From Neobacillus sp. YX16 (GTDB taxonomy: Bacteria; Bacillota; Bacilli; Bacillales; Cytobacillaceae): 64,000 nt of DNA. The notes below the pieces were generated by a model that was given only the letters and a program-made list of their open reading frames with translations, searched no databases and was not told the origin of the DNA. The DNA lies in the NCBI RefSeq assembly GCF_030123505.1, contig NZ_CP126115.1, forward strand, positions 4,602,001 through 4,666,000, in the 5' to 3' direction. Position numbers and translations under genes: made by a program. Within the stretch, counting starts at the first letter, position 1. Every line of letters starts with the position of its first letter. This document shows, piece by piece, positions 1,840 through 61,393 of the stretch.

Positions 1840-4004
1840 ACTTGTACCACCTTCTTCGTCATTTCTGGATATTCGATTCTCGAGTGGAAAATTCCCTTTA
1901 ACGTTTCACAAAACGAATGGGACACCGTTTCTAGTTCTTTTAATGTTAAATCACATTCATTTAATTGCCCATCCTGAAGCCTGTCTGAAACAATCTTCTT
2001 AACGAGCGATTCGATTGTTTCAGGCGTAGGCTGGTTAAGGGATCTAACTGCAGCCTCTACGCTGTCAGCAATACCCACAATAGCTGATTCTTTCGTTTGT
2101 GCCTTTGGACCAGGATAACGGTAATCTTCTTCCTTTACCTCTTGTTCGCCTTGTACAGCCTTATGGTAAAAGAACTTCAATAAAGTATTCCCATGATGCT
2201 GTTCAGCGATATGGATGATTTCTTTTGGCAGGTTATATTTTTTTAATATTGCCGCCCCATCTGTTACGTGTGAAATAATAATATTTGCACTTTTATCAGG
2301 CGGCAGCCGGTCATGCGGGTTTTCACGGTGCATCTGATTTTCTATAAAAAAGTTTGGACGTTTTGTTTTCCCAATATCATGGTAATAACAGCCTACCCTT
2401 GCAAGCAGACCATTAGCTCCAATAGCTTCACAGGCTGCGTCCGCTAAATTAGCAACCATAACACTATGGTGATAGGTCCCAGGTGCTTCCATTAAGATTT
2501 TCCTCAGAAGTGGATGATTAGGGTTTGAAAGCTCAATCAACTTCATTGTAGAGAGAATTCCGAAGCTGGTTTCAAATAATGGTAATAATCCCATCGTCAA
2601 AACAGCGGAACCGATACCTGAAAAAATGGCTGTTAAGATATAATACCCATATTCCAATCCTGAAAATTGTCCATTCGGTAAAAACATAAGTGCCCAAATG
2701 GTAAAAAGATTTACTGCTGCTGCAAAGGAACCTGCTTGCAGAATTTTAGAGCGCTGATTTTGGTCACTTAAAAAGAGCAAAGCTGCAAGGGAACTAAACA
2801 TTATATAAATCCCCACAGAAAAATTTAGCGTTCCAGAAACCCCTTCATTGAATAAAAGACTGCCAAAAATAGAAAAGATGATCGAAGAAAGAATCGCAAG
2901 TTTTTCATCAATTAATATCTTAATTAACATCCCGCCCATAGCGGCAGGGAATAAATAGCCAATTCCTGAATAGTTAAAAATTTGAAGCATGCTGACAATT
3001 TTCAAAATAAAAAACGTCAGTATAAAAATAATCCCAAACAAGAGCAGGTTGGTATGTTTCTTTTCCGGCTGCTCCTTCAATTGATAGAAATAGTAATAAA
3101 GTGACGAAAGAATAATTGAAATTAAGATAAATAAACCAATGAATGGTTTATAAGACTGTTTGTTGTCTAATAATCCTACTAGTTCTAACTGTCGAAATTC
3201 TTCCTGACGGATTAATTTACCCTCTTCAATAATAATTTGTCCCTGTAGGATTTTAACAGGCTCAACAGACTCTGCTTGTTGTTTACGCAGCTCTTCTGTA
3301 GCCTCTGGATCATAAAATTCATTTTGAATGACTGCATATCTGCCTAATTCTATGGCAGCATTTTTTAAGTCACTATTCAGGGTCGTAAATTTTAATTCTT
3401 CTTCCAGGCTTTTTTTTGCATTTTCTACATCATCTGCAGAAATCCGCTTGTTCATAACATTGTTAATGGCTGTTACCGTTAAGTCTTTTGCAATCGCTAA
3501 TTCATCATCGCTGGCTTGTACAAGTGCAGTAAAAACTCGCTCTGATAAATCCTTGATTACACGATCTGTTAATTTCGCCTTTAACATGGTTACTTCTTCT
3601 TCAATAGTTGGCTGCAGTACATCTATAGGTTCTTCCTCTGCCGCAATCTGTTTTTTCCTTTCATCCTCTATTTCTTCATTTACTTCTGTACCTGAGTCAA
3701 ATATGGATGATATCAAATCTACTTGATTAGATGAATATTCTTTTTTTAATGTATATACATCTTGAACTTGGTCTAATGCCTCTTGACGTTTTTTTTCTGT
3801 ACTAATTTTATCCTCTACCGTTGCTGGGGATCGAATTGTTTTCTCAGCTACTGTTAATAGGCTTATATCGAGTTTTTCAGGCTTTACATGTCCATACATA
3901 GAGGTAAATAGAATGATTCCTAAAACAACAAACACTAATACTCTGAAAAAGGTATAATCTAGAAGCTTTTTTATTTGAATTAAGTATTGCTGTATTTTTT
4001 TCAA
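1836..4004 (-). CDS. pgpH: 7TMR-HD family cyclic-di-AMP phosphodiesterase PgpH
   Basis: Membrane phosphodiesterase that hydrolyses c-di-AMP and so influences potassium and osmolyte homeostasis (function from Bacillus/Listeria PgpH). Order of parts: an N-terminal membrane anchor (about 18-38), a long extracytoplasmic region rich in charged helices, seven hydrophobic segments (about 285-480), then a cytoplasmic HD domain. The HD domain shows [18 protein letters not shown] and YYHDIGK at about residues 505-545. The 722-residue length fits the family. It sits 195 bp downstream of phoH, behind a terminator, so it probably has its own promoter. Confidence 0.93.
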
Positions 4005-41778: not shown

Positions 41779-41937
41779 TCAACAGCAAGTTGTATAATAC
41801 CACCAGCCGCCAAAGATTAAGACTAGTATTAATAACACGATGAAGAGTGCGTACCATCCGCCTCCTCCAGTTGCATAAGGAACAGGATAAACTGGATAAG
41901 GGGCTGGGTAGCAGGGATTTGGATAACCATATGACAT
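41779..41937 (-). CDS. YjcZ family small sporulation-type protein
   Basis: 52-residue peptide. The N-terminus is rich in Tyr, Pro and Cys (MSYGYPNPCYPAPYPVYP), followed by GGGG and a single hydrophobic helix (WYALFIVLLILVLIFGGWW) and a CC end. This is the layout of the YjcZ family found in spore-related small membrane proteins. The ATG at 41937 has AAAGGGGGT upstream; the longer ORF start is rejected. Function unknown. Confidence 0.82.
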   Translation of the reverse strand: MSYGYPNPCYPAPYPVYPVPYATGGGGWYALFIVLLILVLIFGGWWYYTTCC

Positions 41938-42018
41938 ATAAATACCCCCTTTCCCTTTTAATACTAGGTTATGTGCCTGTATACTTTTATGTATAGGCAC
42001 ATGCCGTTTTAATTAAAA

Positions 42019-42321
42019 GGCCGTGTTAAATTAGGCTGTTGATTTGTGCTCCACTAAGGAAAGCTTCTTTGAATAATCACCGCAGTGACAGGCCGTCTCT
42101 GCCTGTCACGAGGCGCTTCGCTTTCCGCAGGCGGTTCGGGAAGCCTCCTCGGCGCTAAAGCACCTGCGGGGTCTCCCCTGTCCCGTCCTCCTGCAGGACA
42201 TTGATTTACTTCCTCGAATCTGCCCACGCACGAAGAAAATGCGATAGCATTTTCGAGGAGTCTCGCGCCTTCCGCACAAATCAACAGGGTTCTAAAATCA
42301 ATAGTTACCTTTAACACAGCC
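42019..42321. repeat. GC-rich intergenic element with nested inverted ends
   Basis: About 303 bp, clearly more GC-rich than its surroundings. Outer ends GGCCGTGTTAAA (42019-42030) and TTTAACACAGCC (42310-42321) are inverted with one mismatch; inside them CTGTTGATTTGTGC (42036-42049) and its exact complement (42274-42287). Internal hairpins include GTGACAGGC/GCCTGTCAC (42085-42109) and GAAAATGC/GCATTTTC. No ORF in it looks real. I have seen similar GC-rich intergenic palindromic sequences in Bacillaceae genomes, but cannot name the family. Confidence 0.85.
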
Positions 42322-43079: not shown

Positions 43080-43202
43080 GCACATCCACCCCCGTGCTTT
43101 TTTGGGCTTTGCCTATAACTAATTCCTATGTTATAAACAGGGTGATTGTGTCTGTCCAAAACATTTTATTTGAAAATAAAGGCTTTTATCACACTACAAA
43201 AA

Positions 43203-43234
43203 AAGCACTGACCTTTAAAAAGGTCAATGCTTCT
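43203..43234 (-). terminator. terminator after the 25-residue ORF, upstream of sigK
   Basis: AAGCAYTGACCTTT/AAAGGTCAGTGCTT-type stem with TTTTTTTGTAG on the minus strand. It separates the small-ORF region from sigK. Confidence 0.8.
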
Positions 43235-43236
43235 TG

Positions 43237-43314
43237 TTATTCTACACTTAGCTCCGCTGTTATTACACAGCCAATTGCCGCAGTTATGACCAAAGCCATC
43301 ACGATCATGAACAT
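43237..43314 (-). CDS. putative 25-residue membrane peptide
   Basis: Begins MFMIVMALVITAAIGCV and ends in an acidic tail (TAELSVE): one short hydrophobic helix with a single Cys. The SD AAGGGGTGG lies five bases from the ATG, and an intrinsic terminator follows three bases after the stop. Gene-like signals are good, but the family is unknown and it could be a leader peptide. Confidence 0.5.
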   Translation of the reverse strand: MFMIVMALVITAAIGCVITAELSVE

Positions 43315-43446
43315 ATTCTCCACCCCTTAAGATAGATCCTTTTATCTACTTCGAATTTATCACATTTTCACAGTATCTAACTTAAGGGGTTGTGAACATT
43401 TTGTTAACATACATTTATCGTTAATCATTTATTGTTATTTATGATT

Positions 43447-43509
43447 TCATTTTTTATTTTTCTTCTTTGCTTTCATGAAAAGAAACAATAAAAAGGTATG
43501 CACCGGCAT
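43447..43509 (-). CDS. putative 20-residue basic peptide
   Basis: A hydrophobic N-terminal half (VHTFLLFLFM) is followed by a run of Lys (KAKKKNKK). A perfect TAAGGAGGT SD lies ten bases upstream. Last in a series of five small ORFs spaced 26-36 bp apart. The shape resembles a membrane-active or membrane-anchored micropeptide; no homology is claimed. Confidence 0.4.
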   Translation of the reverse strand: MPVHTFLLFLFMKAKKKNKK

Positions 43510-43536
43510 TTTTCAACTACCTCCTTAATATCCTAA

Positions 43537-43596
43537 CTAGGTGGTGTCTTTCATACTCCATAAGCTTGCACCGCGTTTTTGAATTAAATAAATCAT
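43537..43596 (-). CDS. putative 19-residue peptide
   Basis: Starts MIYLIQKRGASLW; AAAGGTGGG SD six bases upstream of ATG; 36 bp after the first YrzI paralogue and 27 bp before the basic 20-mer. Too short to judge by sequence alone; listed because of spacing and SD. Confidence 0.3.
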   Translation of the reverse strand: MIYLIQKRGASLWSMKDTT

Positions 43597-43632
43597 TGTA
43601 AACCCACCTTTCTTTTTTTGTCATTTAAAGCC

Positions 43633-43773
43633 TTAATACATGCGATGAACGGATATCTGACGATCCTTCGTTGCTTCATATATTTTTTTAATTTGTTCTT
43701 GGTGTGCTGCTTCTTCGATACTCATCTCACGTTTATTGATGGTAATGGATAAGAATAAAATATTTAAGGTCAT
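43633..43773 (-). CDS. yrzI: YrzI family small protein, paralogue 1
   Basis: 46 residues. The family pattern MTLNILFLSITINKRE at the N-terminus is followed by a charged helix and ends in KDRQISVHRMY. GGGAGGTG SD. Third in transcription order of three tandem paralogues of identical length. In B. subtilis yrzI follows yrhC, the same neighbourhood. Function unknown. Confidence 0.8.
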   Translation of the reverse strand: MTLNILFLSITINKREMSIEEAAHQEQIKKIYEATKDRQISVHRMY

Positions 43774-43799
43774 GACTTTCACCTCCCATTAAGGGTTTA

Positions 43800-43940
43800 T
43801 TACATTAAATGATAAGCAGTAACTTGACGGTCTTTGTGCTGATCATATAACTTTTCAACCATTTCATTTCGCATTGCTTCTTGCAGACTTTCTTTACGTT
43901 TCTTAACTGTAATCGAAAAAAATAAAATATTAAGAGTCAT
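43800..43940 (-). CDS. yrzI: YrzI family small protein, paralogue 2
   Basis: 46 residues: MTLNILFFSITVKKRKESLQ, then an amphipathic charged helix and KDRQVTAYHLM. SD is AAGGAAG. 26 bp before paralogue 1 and 30 bp after paralogue 3. It shares the ITVKKRKESLQ block with paralogue 3, suggesting those two are the more recent duplicates. Confidence 0.8.
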   Translation of the reverse strand: MTLNILFFSITVKKRKESLQEAMRNEMVEKLYDQHKDRQVTAYHLM

Positions 43941-43970
43941 TTAAATACACTTCCTTTTTTTAGGGTTAAT

Positions 43971-44111
43971 TTATAGTAAATGATAAACCGACAATTGACG
44001 TTCCTTGTTTTGCTCAAAAAGTTTTTCTATCGTTTCATTCCGAGTTGCTTGTTGTAAACTTTCTTTGCGTTTTTTTAATGTAATCGAGATAAAAAATATA
44101 TTTAGTGTCAT
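43971..44111 (-). CDS. yrzI: YrzI family small protein, paralogue 3
   Basis: 46 residues: MTLNIFFISITLKKRKESLQ, then KERQLSVYHLL at the end. AAGGGGTGA SD. First of the tandem array in transcription order, placed directly after two tandem terminators, so the array should have its own promoter in 44112-44170. A TATAAA-like -10 is seen there but no clear -35. Confidence 0.8.
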   Translation of the reverse strand: MTLNIFFISITLKKRKESLQQATRNETIEKLFEQNKERQLSVYHLL

Positions 44112-44172
44112 AACTATCACCCCTTCCCTTTATAACCAAATTTGTTAATAATATCCATTAAACAGGCGCAAA

Positions 44173-44204
44173 AAGGCCGCAAGAAATTACTCCCTTGCGG
44201 CCTT
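44173..44204 (-). terminator. second of two tandem terminators before the YrzI array
   Basis: AAGGCCGCAAG pairs perfectly with CTTGCGGCCTT (11 bp), then TTTTGCG on the minus strand. Confidence 0.8.
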
Positions 44205-44218
44205 AATTTTAGGCACAA

Positions 44219-44249
44219 AAATACCGCAGGGCAGCACTCTCCCTGCGGC
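44219..44249 (-). terminator. first of two tandem terminators, after the 34-residue ORF
   Basis: CCGCAGGG/CCCTGCGG with a 9-nt loop, followed by TATTTTTGT on the minus strand. Confidence 0.8.
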
Positions 44250-44274
44250 ATGGATATGTTAGGTAACTAAAAAA

Positions 44275-44379
44275 TTAGTTAAGCAATCCATTCCTGTCGG
44301 TCGAATGCAAATTATTTACATATGCAGTTGTCATCCAAATAGTATTACCAGTGGCAGCAACCATTAATTTCATCATCAT
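44275..44379 (-). CDS. putative 34-residue peptide between yrhC and the YrzI array
   Basis: MMMKLMVAATGNTIWMTTAY start, polar C-terminus (NNLHSTDRNGLLN). GGAGG lies nine bases before the first of three consecutive ATG codons. Two tandem terminators follow. It is preceded by the yrhC terminator, so it is a separate short transcript. No recognised family. Confidence 0.5.
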   Translation of the reverse strand: MMMKLMVAATGNTIWMTTAYVNNLHSTDRNGLLN

Positions 44380-44507
44380 TTTCTTCGACCTCCTTCGGAA
44401 TTTTTTACTAACTACGGTAATTATATCCAGCAACATAACCTTTGTAAACCACTTTTTTGAAATTTTTTTAAAAATAGTTAAATTGCCTGGTTTATTCCAA
44501 AAAAAAT

Positions 44508-44528
44508 AAACGTCCCTGAGGAACGTTT
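44508..44528 (-). terminator. terminator at the end of yrhC
   Basis: AAACGTTCC/GG.ACGTTT hairpin followed by ATTTTTTTT on the minus strand; overlaps the yrhC stop codon. Confidence 0.8.
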
Positions 44529-44775
44529 ACCTTTGCTTGCCATCTTCTATATCCATAAGTTTAAGCTGGCACTGTTTCGATTGAATAAAAAGTAAAATCG
44601 AAACCGCTAAAAAGGACATAGAGGAGATCATCATTATATTTATATCCATCTCACTCTTAGTATCTGATGGAATTATTACACCTAAAAAGAAAAATACACC
44701 GACAGCGAGTAATACGACAGCAAATTGTTTAAAATCAACCATTTTTTCATAAAGACTTTTTGTTTGTTTATCCAC
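44527..44775 (-). CDS. yrhC: YrhC-like membrane protein
   Basis: 82 residues with two hydrophobic helices (about 15-35 and 45-65; FAVVLLAVGVFFFLGVIIP and MMISSMSFLAVSILLFI) and charged ends. Position right after mccB matches B. subtilis yrhC. Function unknown. A hairpin between mccB and yrhC suggests partly separate expression. Confidence 0.82.
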   Translation of the reverse strand: MDKQTKSLYEKMVDFKQFAVVLLAVGVFFFLGVIIPSDTKSEMDINIMMISSMSFLAVSILLFIQSKQCQLKLMDIEDGKQR

Positions 44776-44873
44776 TGTTGGTCACCTGCTTTTCTTTAAA
44801 TCTACTAAGCTACTTTAACATAAAAAACAGCATAAAAGAGTATGTAAATTTTAGAAAAACAAACAAAAATAAA

Positions 44874-61142: not shown

Positions 61143-61393
61143 ACAAAAAAGCCCTCATCCCTAACAGGGACGAGAGCTAACTCGCGGTACCACCCTGATT
61201 ATGAACACAAAAACTTTGGTGTTCATCTCTCAAATAATGCCTTAACGCGGCAAGAACGGCAGTGGTTAGCTGCACTCCGGACTAGCTTCTGTTATCCTTC
61301 ATCTAGAGCTTCTCACAGCCAAGGAAGCTCCTCTCTTAAAGATGGACTACAACATAATAAGGTCCTTCAACATGTTAATCCAAAATATTCTAT
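61143..61393 (-). promoter_or_regulatory. T-box riboswitch of alaS
   Basis: The T-box AGGGTGGTACCGCG is perfect on the minus strand at 61183-61196. It is followed by a terminator (AGCTCTCGTCCCT/AGGGATGAGGGCT, then TTTTTT, 61144-61177). Uncharged tRNA-Ala should stabilise the antiterminator. About 190 nt of structured Stem I-III precede the T-box; a GCT alanine codon at 61284-61286 is a candidate specifier, not proved. Confidence 0.95.

Follow-up and report, generated by a model that had tools for sequence, protein, structure and literature searches.

The 64,000-nucleotide (nt) stretch of DNA analyzed here, called the window below, is taken from Neobacillus sp. YX16 (RefSeq assembly GCF_030123505.1, contig NZ_CP126115.1, positions 4,602,001 to 4,666,000 of the forward strand) and carries an array of micropeptide genes that is a triplicated version, in Neobacillus, of the already known yrzI operon. 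The array is preceded by a conserved leader RNA that is found almost only beside yrzI, and we interpret this leader, with moderate confidence, as a translation-sensing transcription attenuator. The region upstream of the first YrzI gene (YrzI-1) contains, in order, a promoter, a Shine-Dalgarno sequence (SD), a 34-codon open reading frame (ORF), and two tandem hairpins with T-tracts. The attenuator reading is based on the conservation of a leader linked to yrzI, the preserved frame of its ORF, the compensation between the strands of a helix, P1c, that overlaps the SD of this ORF, and the published response of yrzI to inhibition of translation. The preliminary description of the window recognized the array and the selection acting on it and overlooked the leader ORF, the covarying helix, and the double terminator, which together are the best clue to the stimulus of the operon. 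The promoter, leader, helices, hairpins, and ORFs of the operon are all on the minus strand, and coordinates are those of the window.

The putative SigA-type promoter (TTTACA-17-TATAAT, 44420..44448) has 11 of 12 consensus matches, and a similar TTTACA-17-TATA(A/C)T is present upstream of yrzI in related loci. Because promoter-like sites in a generic scan were no commoner than in shuffled sequences (7 versus a mean of 8.3), the promoter call rests on conservation: the pattern was found in 92 of 107 loci, one of which (L093) is the window again. The 15 loci that failed were excluded from the leader counts, and 91 of the other 92 had a readable SD, L093 being counted although it is the window. 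The leader RNA would extend over 44170..44414, where the 5' end is approximate and the 3' end is the T-tract of the second hairpin. The segment at 44112-44414 has a fold z-score of -4.78, and none of 100 shuffles folded equally well. The same order of elements was read in most of the named loci and in many of 23 further loci, including those of the B. subtilis type. A covariance model of the leader (R1), built from 44219-44414 and 27 relatives (28 leaders), was matched exactly once per genome in all 60 genomes sampled from the genus. For 59 of these, the match is located on the strand of yrzI and no more than 600 nt ahead of it. In the sole other genome (G050:C5:180463-182550), the leader is 2.09 kb from the nearest yrzI copy. 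Among 398 genomes of the class, R1 gave 13 matches, 12 of which have a member of the YrzI family (PF09501) 29-108 nt downstream, and the thirteenth (G148, E = 0.0016) has no PF09501; the model is insensitive, leaving 39 of the 51 class genomes that bear PF09501 unmatched, including B. subtilis-type genomes in which the leader had been recognized by direct reading. Rfam, at the gathering score, gave no match in 43200-44800, and its only match in the window is a T-box leader located elsewhere, at 61163-61379 on the minus strand (101 bits).

The 5' strand of P1c, GGTCGAA (44384..44390), overlaps the SD of the leader ORF (AAGGAGG), and the 3' strand, TTCGACC (44299..44305), is located in the H-S-T codons of the same ORF. 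In the predicted fold, the helix is extended by P1b (ATTCC:GGAAT) and by P1a, which pairs the 5' end with the stop-codon region, to form the helix P1. The two strands of P1c change together between lineages. An SD of the GGTCGA type is accompanied by TCGACC in 51 of 54 leaders and by TCAGCC in 1, and an SD of the GGCTGA type by TCAGCC in 16 of 16 and by TCGACC in none, where 1-2% is expected for the complement in shuffled sequence; the 91 leaders counted are related to each other and represent a few events, not 91. Of the 16 leaders of the GGTTGA type, 6 have TCAACC, 5 have TCAGCC, and 2 have TCGACC, while the remaining 3 lack all three. The GGCTGA type was found in the B. subtilis-type genus and in B. 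infantis (L080). Since the helix hardly varies inside Neobacillus, the case for P1c is made by the comparison between lineages.

The frame of the leader ORF (MMMKLMVAATGNTIWMTTAYVNNLHSTDRNGLLN; 44275..44379) is preserved. In 42 of 46 Neobacillus-type leaders, its ATG and TTCGAC are in a single phase even though the spacing between them varies over 14 different lengths. This phase is lost in L064 and L084, and in L081 and L082 the script selected an ATG that overlaps the SD, while direct reading keeps the H-S codons in frame. In the niacini clade, the ratio of nonsynonymous to synonymous polymorphism (pN/pS) for codons 1-23 is 0.77, compared with 0.72 and 0.58 for the control frames, and codons 24-34 are nearly invariant as nucleotides (pS = 0, pN = 0.03). 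The first half of the ORF in the B. subtilis group has a pN/pS of 1.42, and its second half has a pS of 0. No purifying selection on the sequence of the leader peptide was seen in these comparisons. The frame is kept although the peptide is not conserved, which suggests that what counts is that ribosomes pass over the ORF, the end of which is preserved as RNA.

Between the leader ORF and yrzI, both the predicted fold and a reading of related loci identify two hairpins with T-tracts of the intrinsic-terminator type, T1 (GCCGCAGGG...CCCTGCGGT followed by ATTTTT; 44217..44249) and T2 (GGCCGCAAGG...TCTTGCGGCC followed by TTTTT; 44170..44202). A generic terminator scan lists neither T1, which has a loop of 9, nor T2, perhaps because its stem enters the T-tract. 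Pairing of the 3' arm of T1 with the 5' arm of T2 would be a conceivable second antiterminator, although such cross-pairing is to be expected in any case because the arms are near copies. In the Neobacillus alignment, as judged by eye, GGATAT(G) past T2 and CATATCC ahead of T1 might form a helix that surrounds the two hairpins. A candidate antiterminator, P2 (44247..44294), would be formed by GGAATGGAT and ATCCAT(G)CC, the latter situated immediately ahead of T1 and running into its 5' arm; P1 and P2 share one strand, and P2 reaches the base of T1. The pairing energies of P2, calculated for the 83 of 92 leaders that were usable, are lower for a leader's own strands than for strands exchanged between clades, being -12.8 versus -9.2 kcal/mol in Neobacillus (n = 40) and -17.5 versus -10.0 (n = 14) and -16.8 versus -11.0 kcal/mol (n = 11) in two Bacillus groups. 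Folding with a mask over the start region, which mimics a ribosome, was possible for the 39 of 91 leaders that hold the motif, after the effect had first been seen on 21. The GGAATGGAT strand is predicted to pair with the 5' end, as P1, in 30 of these 39 leaders, and the mask abolishes this pairing in 25 of the 30.

The fourth ORF of the array, of 19 codons (MIYLIQKRGASLWSMKDTT, with the C-terminus ...MKDTT; 43537..43596), may connect the operon with the ribosome in another way. S1025 was the first characterized substrate of Rae1, a ribosome-associated ribonuclease (RNase), and the work of Leroy in 2017 is said to place the Rae1 cleavage at the E-K codons of S1025. In the loci listed from the genus of G221, taken here as Bacillus in the strict sense, the ORF after yrzI is MLRMELLMHYTMEKDQV or a variant of it, which is presumably S1025, of 17 residues and cut at E-K. 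A K-D close to the stop codon is common to this peptide and to the 19-mer of the window. Of 106 loci, the window among them, 101 matched a family-derived pattern in which a short ORF of the S1025 type comes after yrzI. In 99 of the 101, D occupies the fourth place from the end, counting the stop, a number that is partly built in since the pattern itself demands D near the end; K precedes it in 91. The codon before the conserved K is GAG (E) in 43 of the 101 loci, and in 30 it is ATG (M). To judge from these features, the 19-mer is most likely an S1025 homologue. Its end, M-K-D-T-T, has ATG AAA where E-K is expected, and because M-K replaces E-K we class it as a homologue of S1025 and not as a Rae1 substrate. 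The operon of B. subtilis (yrzI, S1025, and S1024) is similar in that a PF09501 protein is followed by an ORF of 17-20 codons ending near K-D and in that a leader of the same kind lies ahead of yrzI. On the other hand, it has one YrzI of 49 residues in place of the three of 46 residues in the window, and the basic 20-mer and the 25-mer of the window (described below) were not recognized in the B. subtilis-type loci listed. The host genome contains a Rae1/YacP gene (PF05991, E = 3.6e-60). PF05991 is present in 376 of the 398 class genomes, including all 51 that bear PF09501, and this co-occurrence is uninformative because nearly all other class genomes carry PF05991 too. In B. subtilis, the yrzI operon is a Rae1 target, and S1024, S1025, S1026, yrzI, bmrC, and bmrD are among the Rae1 candidates (PMC10632193; here and below, published work is cited from excerpts of the papers).

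The attenuator that we propose would act as follows. The SigA-type promoter would give rise to a leader RNA containing the small ORF. In an untranslated leader, the 5' end would fold onto the end of the ORF as P1, concealing its SD, and once P1 had formed the two terminators would stop most transcripts. A ribosome moving slowly on the leader ORF, owing to an antibiotic or a shortage of charged tRNA, would keep P1 open and free GGAATGGAT, which could then form P2 with the segment at the base of T1 and permit read-through into the three YrzI genes, the 19-mer, and the basic 20-mer. P2 may be the antiterminator of this scheme, and Rae1 may cut the 19-mer of the window: during brisk translation, the nuclease would cleave the mRNA within the 19-mer while it is being read and shut the operon.

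A known counterpart is the leader of bmrCD in B. subtilis, whose expression is controlled by a leader ORF (bmrB) with a proposed terminator, antiterminator, and anti-antiterminator and which was shown to be a ribosome-mediated attenuator (PMC4191407). Both leaders combine a leader ORF, a terminator of the intrinsic type, and helices that, in the case of yrzI, would exclude each other, and P1, P2, and T1 could be ordered as successive, mutually exclusive helices similar to the anti-antiterminator, antiterminator, and terminator of bmrB, with a putative antitermination step. The terminator of bmrB lies inside the leader ORF, whereas the two hairpins of the window lie after it, and the yrzI leader differs further in that the SD of the leader ORF is itself within a helix. 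The bmrB operon yields a transporter, and the yrzI operon yields micropeptides. Antitermination was tested at bmrB and is proposed for the yrzI leader. bmrCD and yrzI also co-occur in three published settings (PMC10100781, PMC10632193, and PMC10714963), and both have served as reporters of translation inhibition (PMC7604286).

In the excerpts on yrzI expression, a yrzI-luciferase strain is listed in a table of reporters for protein-synthesis inhibition, beside yheI and bmrC fusions (PMC7604286, in which the yrzI reporter is traced to Hutter 2004). Depletion of the tRNA maturases RNase P or Z increases the yrzI and bmrCD mRNAs (PMC10100781), and a whiA mutant has 5-fold more yrzI and 4- to 14-fold more bmrB-C-D transcript (PMC10714963). 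yrzI is also increased 4.3-fold in a yhfW mutant (PMC7317962) and slightly in a sigW mutant (PMC3498285). No description of attenuation at yrzI was found in the excerpts on yrzI, Rae1/S1025, and bmrB attenuation, and one may already be in print. More tentatively, the yrzI operon could be a translation-stress module gated twice by ribosomes, in which the leader, with its SD in a helix covarying between lineages, would open the terminators when ribosomes slow down and Rae1 would close the operon via the 19-mer; the peptides would act on the translation machinery, and the leader would be a Bacillales RNA element absent from Rfam 15.

Several observations weigh against the attenuator. Once freed by the mask, the strand takes up its P2 partner in only 6 of 25 leaders; in the other 19, among which is that of the window, it pairs with different sequence. 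T1 is recognized in 28 of 39 free folds and in 29 of 39 masked folds, that is, the mask does not remove it. Because P2 is rare and T1 persists after masking, antitermination is not supported by equilibrium folding. Support for P2 is absent in L079, L088, L090, and L097-L100 and slight in L081, L082, and L084, and within Neobacillus the P2 pairs are almost invariant and show no covariation. Covariation of the helices within Neobacillus did not exceed that of shuffles, amounting to 2 two-sided pairs, compared with a shuffle mean of 1.4, and to none in a second run. In L064, the leader ORF is frameshifted while the promoter, the helix, and the hairpins are still present. The small ORF after yrzI has M-K in the window and E-K in B. 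subtilis, and the authors of PMC10100781 invoke stability, not antitermination, for the rise of the yrzI mRNA.

These points bear on an alternative that we consider possible, if rather unlikely, namely that the leader constitutes an independent small RNA (sRNA) ending at its own terminators, with yrzI under control of its own and the rise of yrzI under translation stress due to mRNA stabilization only. Besides the result of folding and the stability invoked for the tRNA-maturase effect (PMC10100781), this explanation is favored by ncr2184, a 234-nt RNA that lies between yrzI and yrhG of B. subtilis, upstream of yrzI, and was catalogued among the Hfq-associated sRNAs (PMC3574147); provided that G488 is strain 168, as the coordinates suggest, ncr2184 would fall within the leader. 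In B. amyloliquefaciens, the intergenic yrzI-yrhG transcript was likewise listed earlier as an sRNA and has since been named small-protein-coding (PMC4634765). On the other hand, the leader model matches almost exclusively beside yrzI, and an ORF of preserved frame whose SD lies in a compensating helix would be unusual for a plain sRNA. For B. licheniformis yrzI, features of 301 and 541 nt are given in what appear to be tables of 5'- and 3'-untranslated regions, respectively (PMC3871023, in excerpts that lack the table headings), and the 301-nt feature also argues against a separate sRNA.

It is unlikely, in our view, that the operon is instead a toxin-antidote-like set in which excess YrzI is harmful, the 19-mer or Rae1 restrains it, and the tandem copies add dosage. 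Over-expression of YrzI was reportedly harmful in the 2017 work of Leroy, an effect that S1025 is said to have relieved. The N-terminal part of YrzI is hydrophobic and the remainder is charged, which would suit a membrane-active or sticky peptide; an AlphaFold2 model from 42 sequences gave a single helix with a predicted template modeling score (pTM) of 0.34, which is too weak to be of use. The excerpts on yrzI contain no data on YrzI toxicity, and a fourth YrzI copy (C1:6175172-6175288 of G000), which has its own SD, is accompanied by neither the leader nor the 19-mer in the adjoining stretch that was inspected. It is very improbable that the leader ORF encodes a functional small protein in place of a regulatory ORF: its good SD and conserved frame would agree with this, whereas its codons 1-23 behave like the control frames and its last 11 codons are nearly invariant at the nucleotide level.

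The genes that the proposed attenuator would control were confirmed from the sequence in the form given by the preliminary description, as five ORFs with successive gaps of 30, 26, 36, and 27 nt, each with its own SD (AAGGGGTG, AAGGAAGTG, GGGAGGTG, AAAGGTGGG, and AAGGAGGT). Three ORFs encode YrzI proteins of 46 residues, namely YrzI-1 (43971..44111; PF09501, E = 1.3e-12), YrzI-2 (43800..43940; E = 1.4e-14), and YrzI-3 (43633..43773; E = 2.3e-16), and these are followed by the 19-codon ORF and by a basic ORF of 20 codons (MPVHTFLLFLFMKAKKKNKK, of the type MPLHxxxLSLxFKxKKK; 43447..43509). The five ORFs probably share one transcript. The span proposed previously, 43447..44111, holds these five ORFs and omits the leader (44448..44170) and a hydrophobic ORF of 25 codons (type MFxVVMALVITGAIGCVISAELSVE; 43237..43314), whose membership in the yrzI operon is uncertain; this ORF is followed by a near-palindromic, terminator-like site at 43209-43226, which the terminator scan lists on the plus strand. 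The array was also described as a micropeptide operon of unknown function: its tight packing is confirmed, and the operon is already known as the yrzI operon, producing "multiple peptides of unknown function" (PMC10100781), and as a target of Rae1 (PMC10632193).

All three YrzI proteins pass the PF09501 cut-off (23 bits), and one passes that of NCBIfam TIGR02413 (47.05 bits), a model with the family type "paralog"; the other two score 44.9 and 36.7 bits. The Pfam title of PF09501 is "probable sporulation protein," which is a title only. For the 19-mer, the 20-mer, the 25-mer, and the leader peptide no Pfam match was found, and for the 20-mer, the 25-mer, and the leader peptide no NCBIfam match. 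Related loci were compared in a set of 50 (49 from named genome contigs and the window), which are partly dependent, since L036 is almost identical to the window and L066 and L075 share one genome. The gene order is kept across related loci, and patterns derived from the family itself detected the 19-mer in 48, the 20-mer in 47, and the 25-mer in 45 of the 50. The ratio of nonsynonymous to synonymous substitution rates (dN/dS), calculated only from equal-length pairs less than 25% apart and, for the YrzI copies, from 9 niacini-clade loci, is 0.10-0.23 in the frame of the five array ORFs and about 0.9-6 in out-of-frame controls. The individual values (control frames in parentheses) are 0.15 for YrzI-1 (0.91 and 3.1), 0.15 for YrzI-2 (0.88 and 2.0), 0.10 for YrzI-3 (1.7 and 6.0), 0.23 for the 19-mer (1.0 and 1.7), and 0.17 for the 20-mer (1.1 and 3.5), and the 25-mer has 0.09 (2.0 and 6.2). 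The PF09501 matches, the purifying selection confined to the correct frame, and the conserved order indicate that the array ORFs behave as real genes.

YrzI-1 is 67% and 48% identical to the other two copies. In a tree of 111 YrzI rows, which is built on just 46 columns and leaves many forks open, each copy of the window groups with its positional orthologues, in sets of 10 (support 95/91), 10 (97/93), and 11 rows (99/93), and copies 1 and 2 fall within one set of 22 rows (support 98/90). These sets, together with the dN/dS of 0.10-0.15 between relatives, bear out the earlier suggestion of retained, selected copies, and neutral amplification of a small ORF with no retained role for each copy, with which the variation from 1 to 4 copies among loci would agree, is extremely improbable given the same per-copy values and separate sets in the niacini clade. 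PF09501 is present in all 60 sampled genomes of the genus, with 1 to 7 per genome among the matches listed, and in all 44 genomes of the genus of G221, where a genome-wide count of 1 match in 36 and 2 in 8 fits the single yrzI that the preliminary description gave for B. subtilis. The array does have three copies, as stated before, and tandem copies are usual among the related loci: 1, 2, 3, and 4 copies occur at 10, 20, 19, and 1 of the 50 loci, respectively, that is, 2-4 copies at 40. A literature search for a tandem YrzI family returned nothing.

The host genome is a single contig of 6.23 Mb, and its closest named relatives belong to Neobacillus, with several assigned to N. niacini. The placement of the array between sulfur metabolism and sigK is correct: upstream of it lie YrhC, cystathionine gamma-lyase, a cysteine-synthase-type gene, and MtnN, and downstream SigK. 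A GC-rich repeat of 226 bp at 42054-42279 has 52 matching pieces genome-wide, and a stretch resembling it directly follows the fourth YrzI copy (L004). In Neobacillus cucumis DSM 101566 (L072), the promoter and the leader ORF were not found beside yrzI (upstream of position 3001), and the interval from a T2-like hairpin, 397 nt upstream, to yrzI contains a stretch that by eye resembles the 226-bp repeat; it is perhaps an insertion that separates the leader from the array. Downstream of sigK, at 41779-42000, there is a small hydrophobic ORF with an end rich in Gly and Trp/Tyr, which we take to resemble a YjcZ-type sporulation protein.

The conserved leader, with its lineage-wise compensation, would provide a concrete cis element behind a marker of translation inhibition. 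It may offer one shared logic for two Rae1 targets, bmrCD and yrzI, and a role of the YrzI micropeptides in translation stress would become open to direct experiment.
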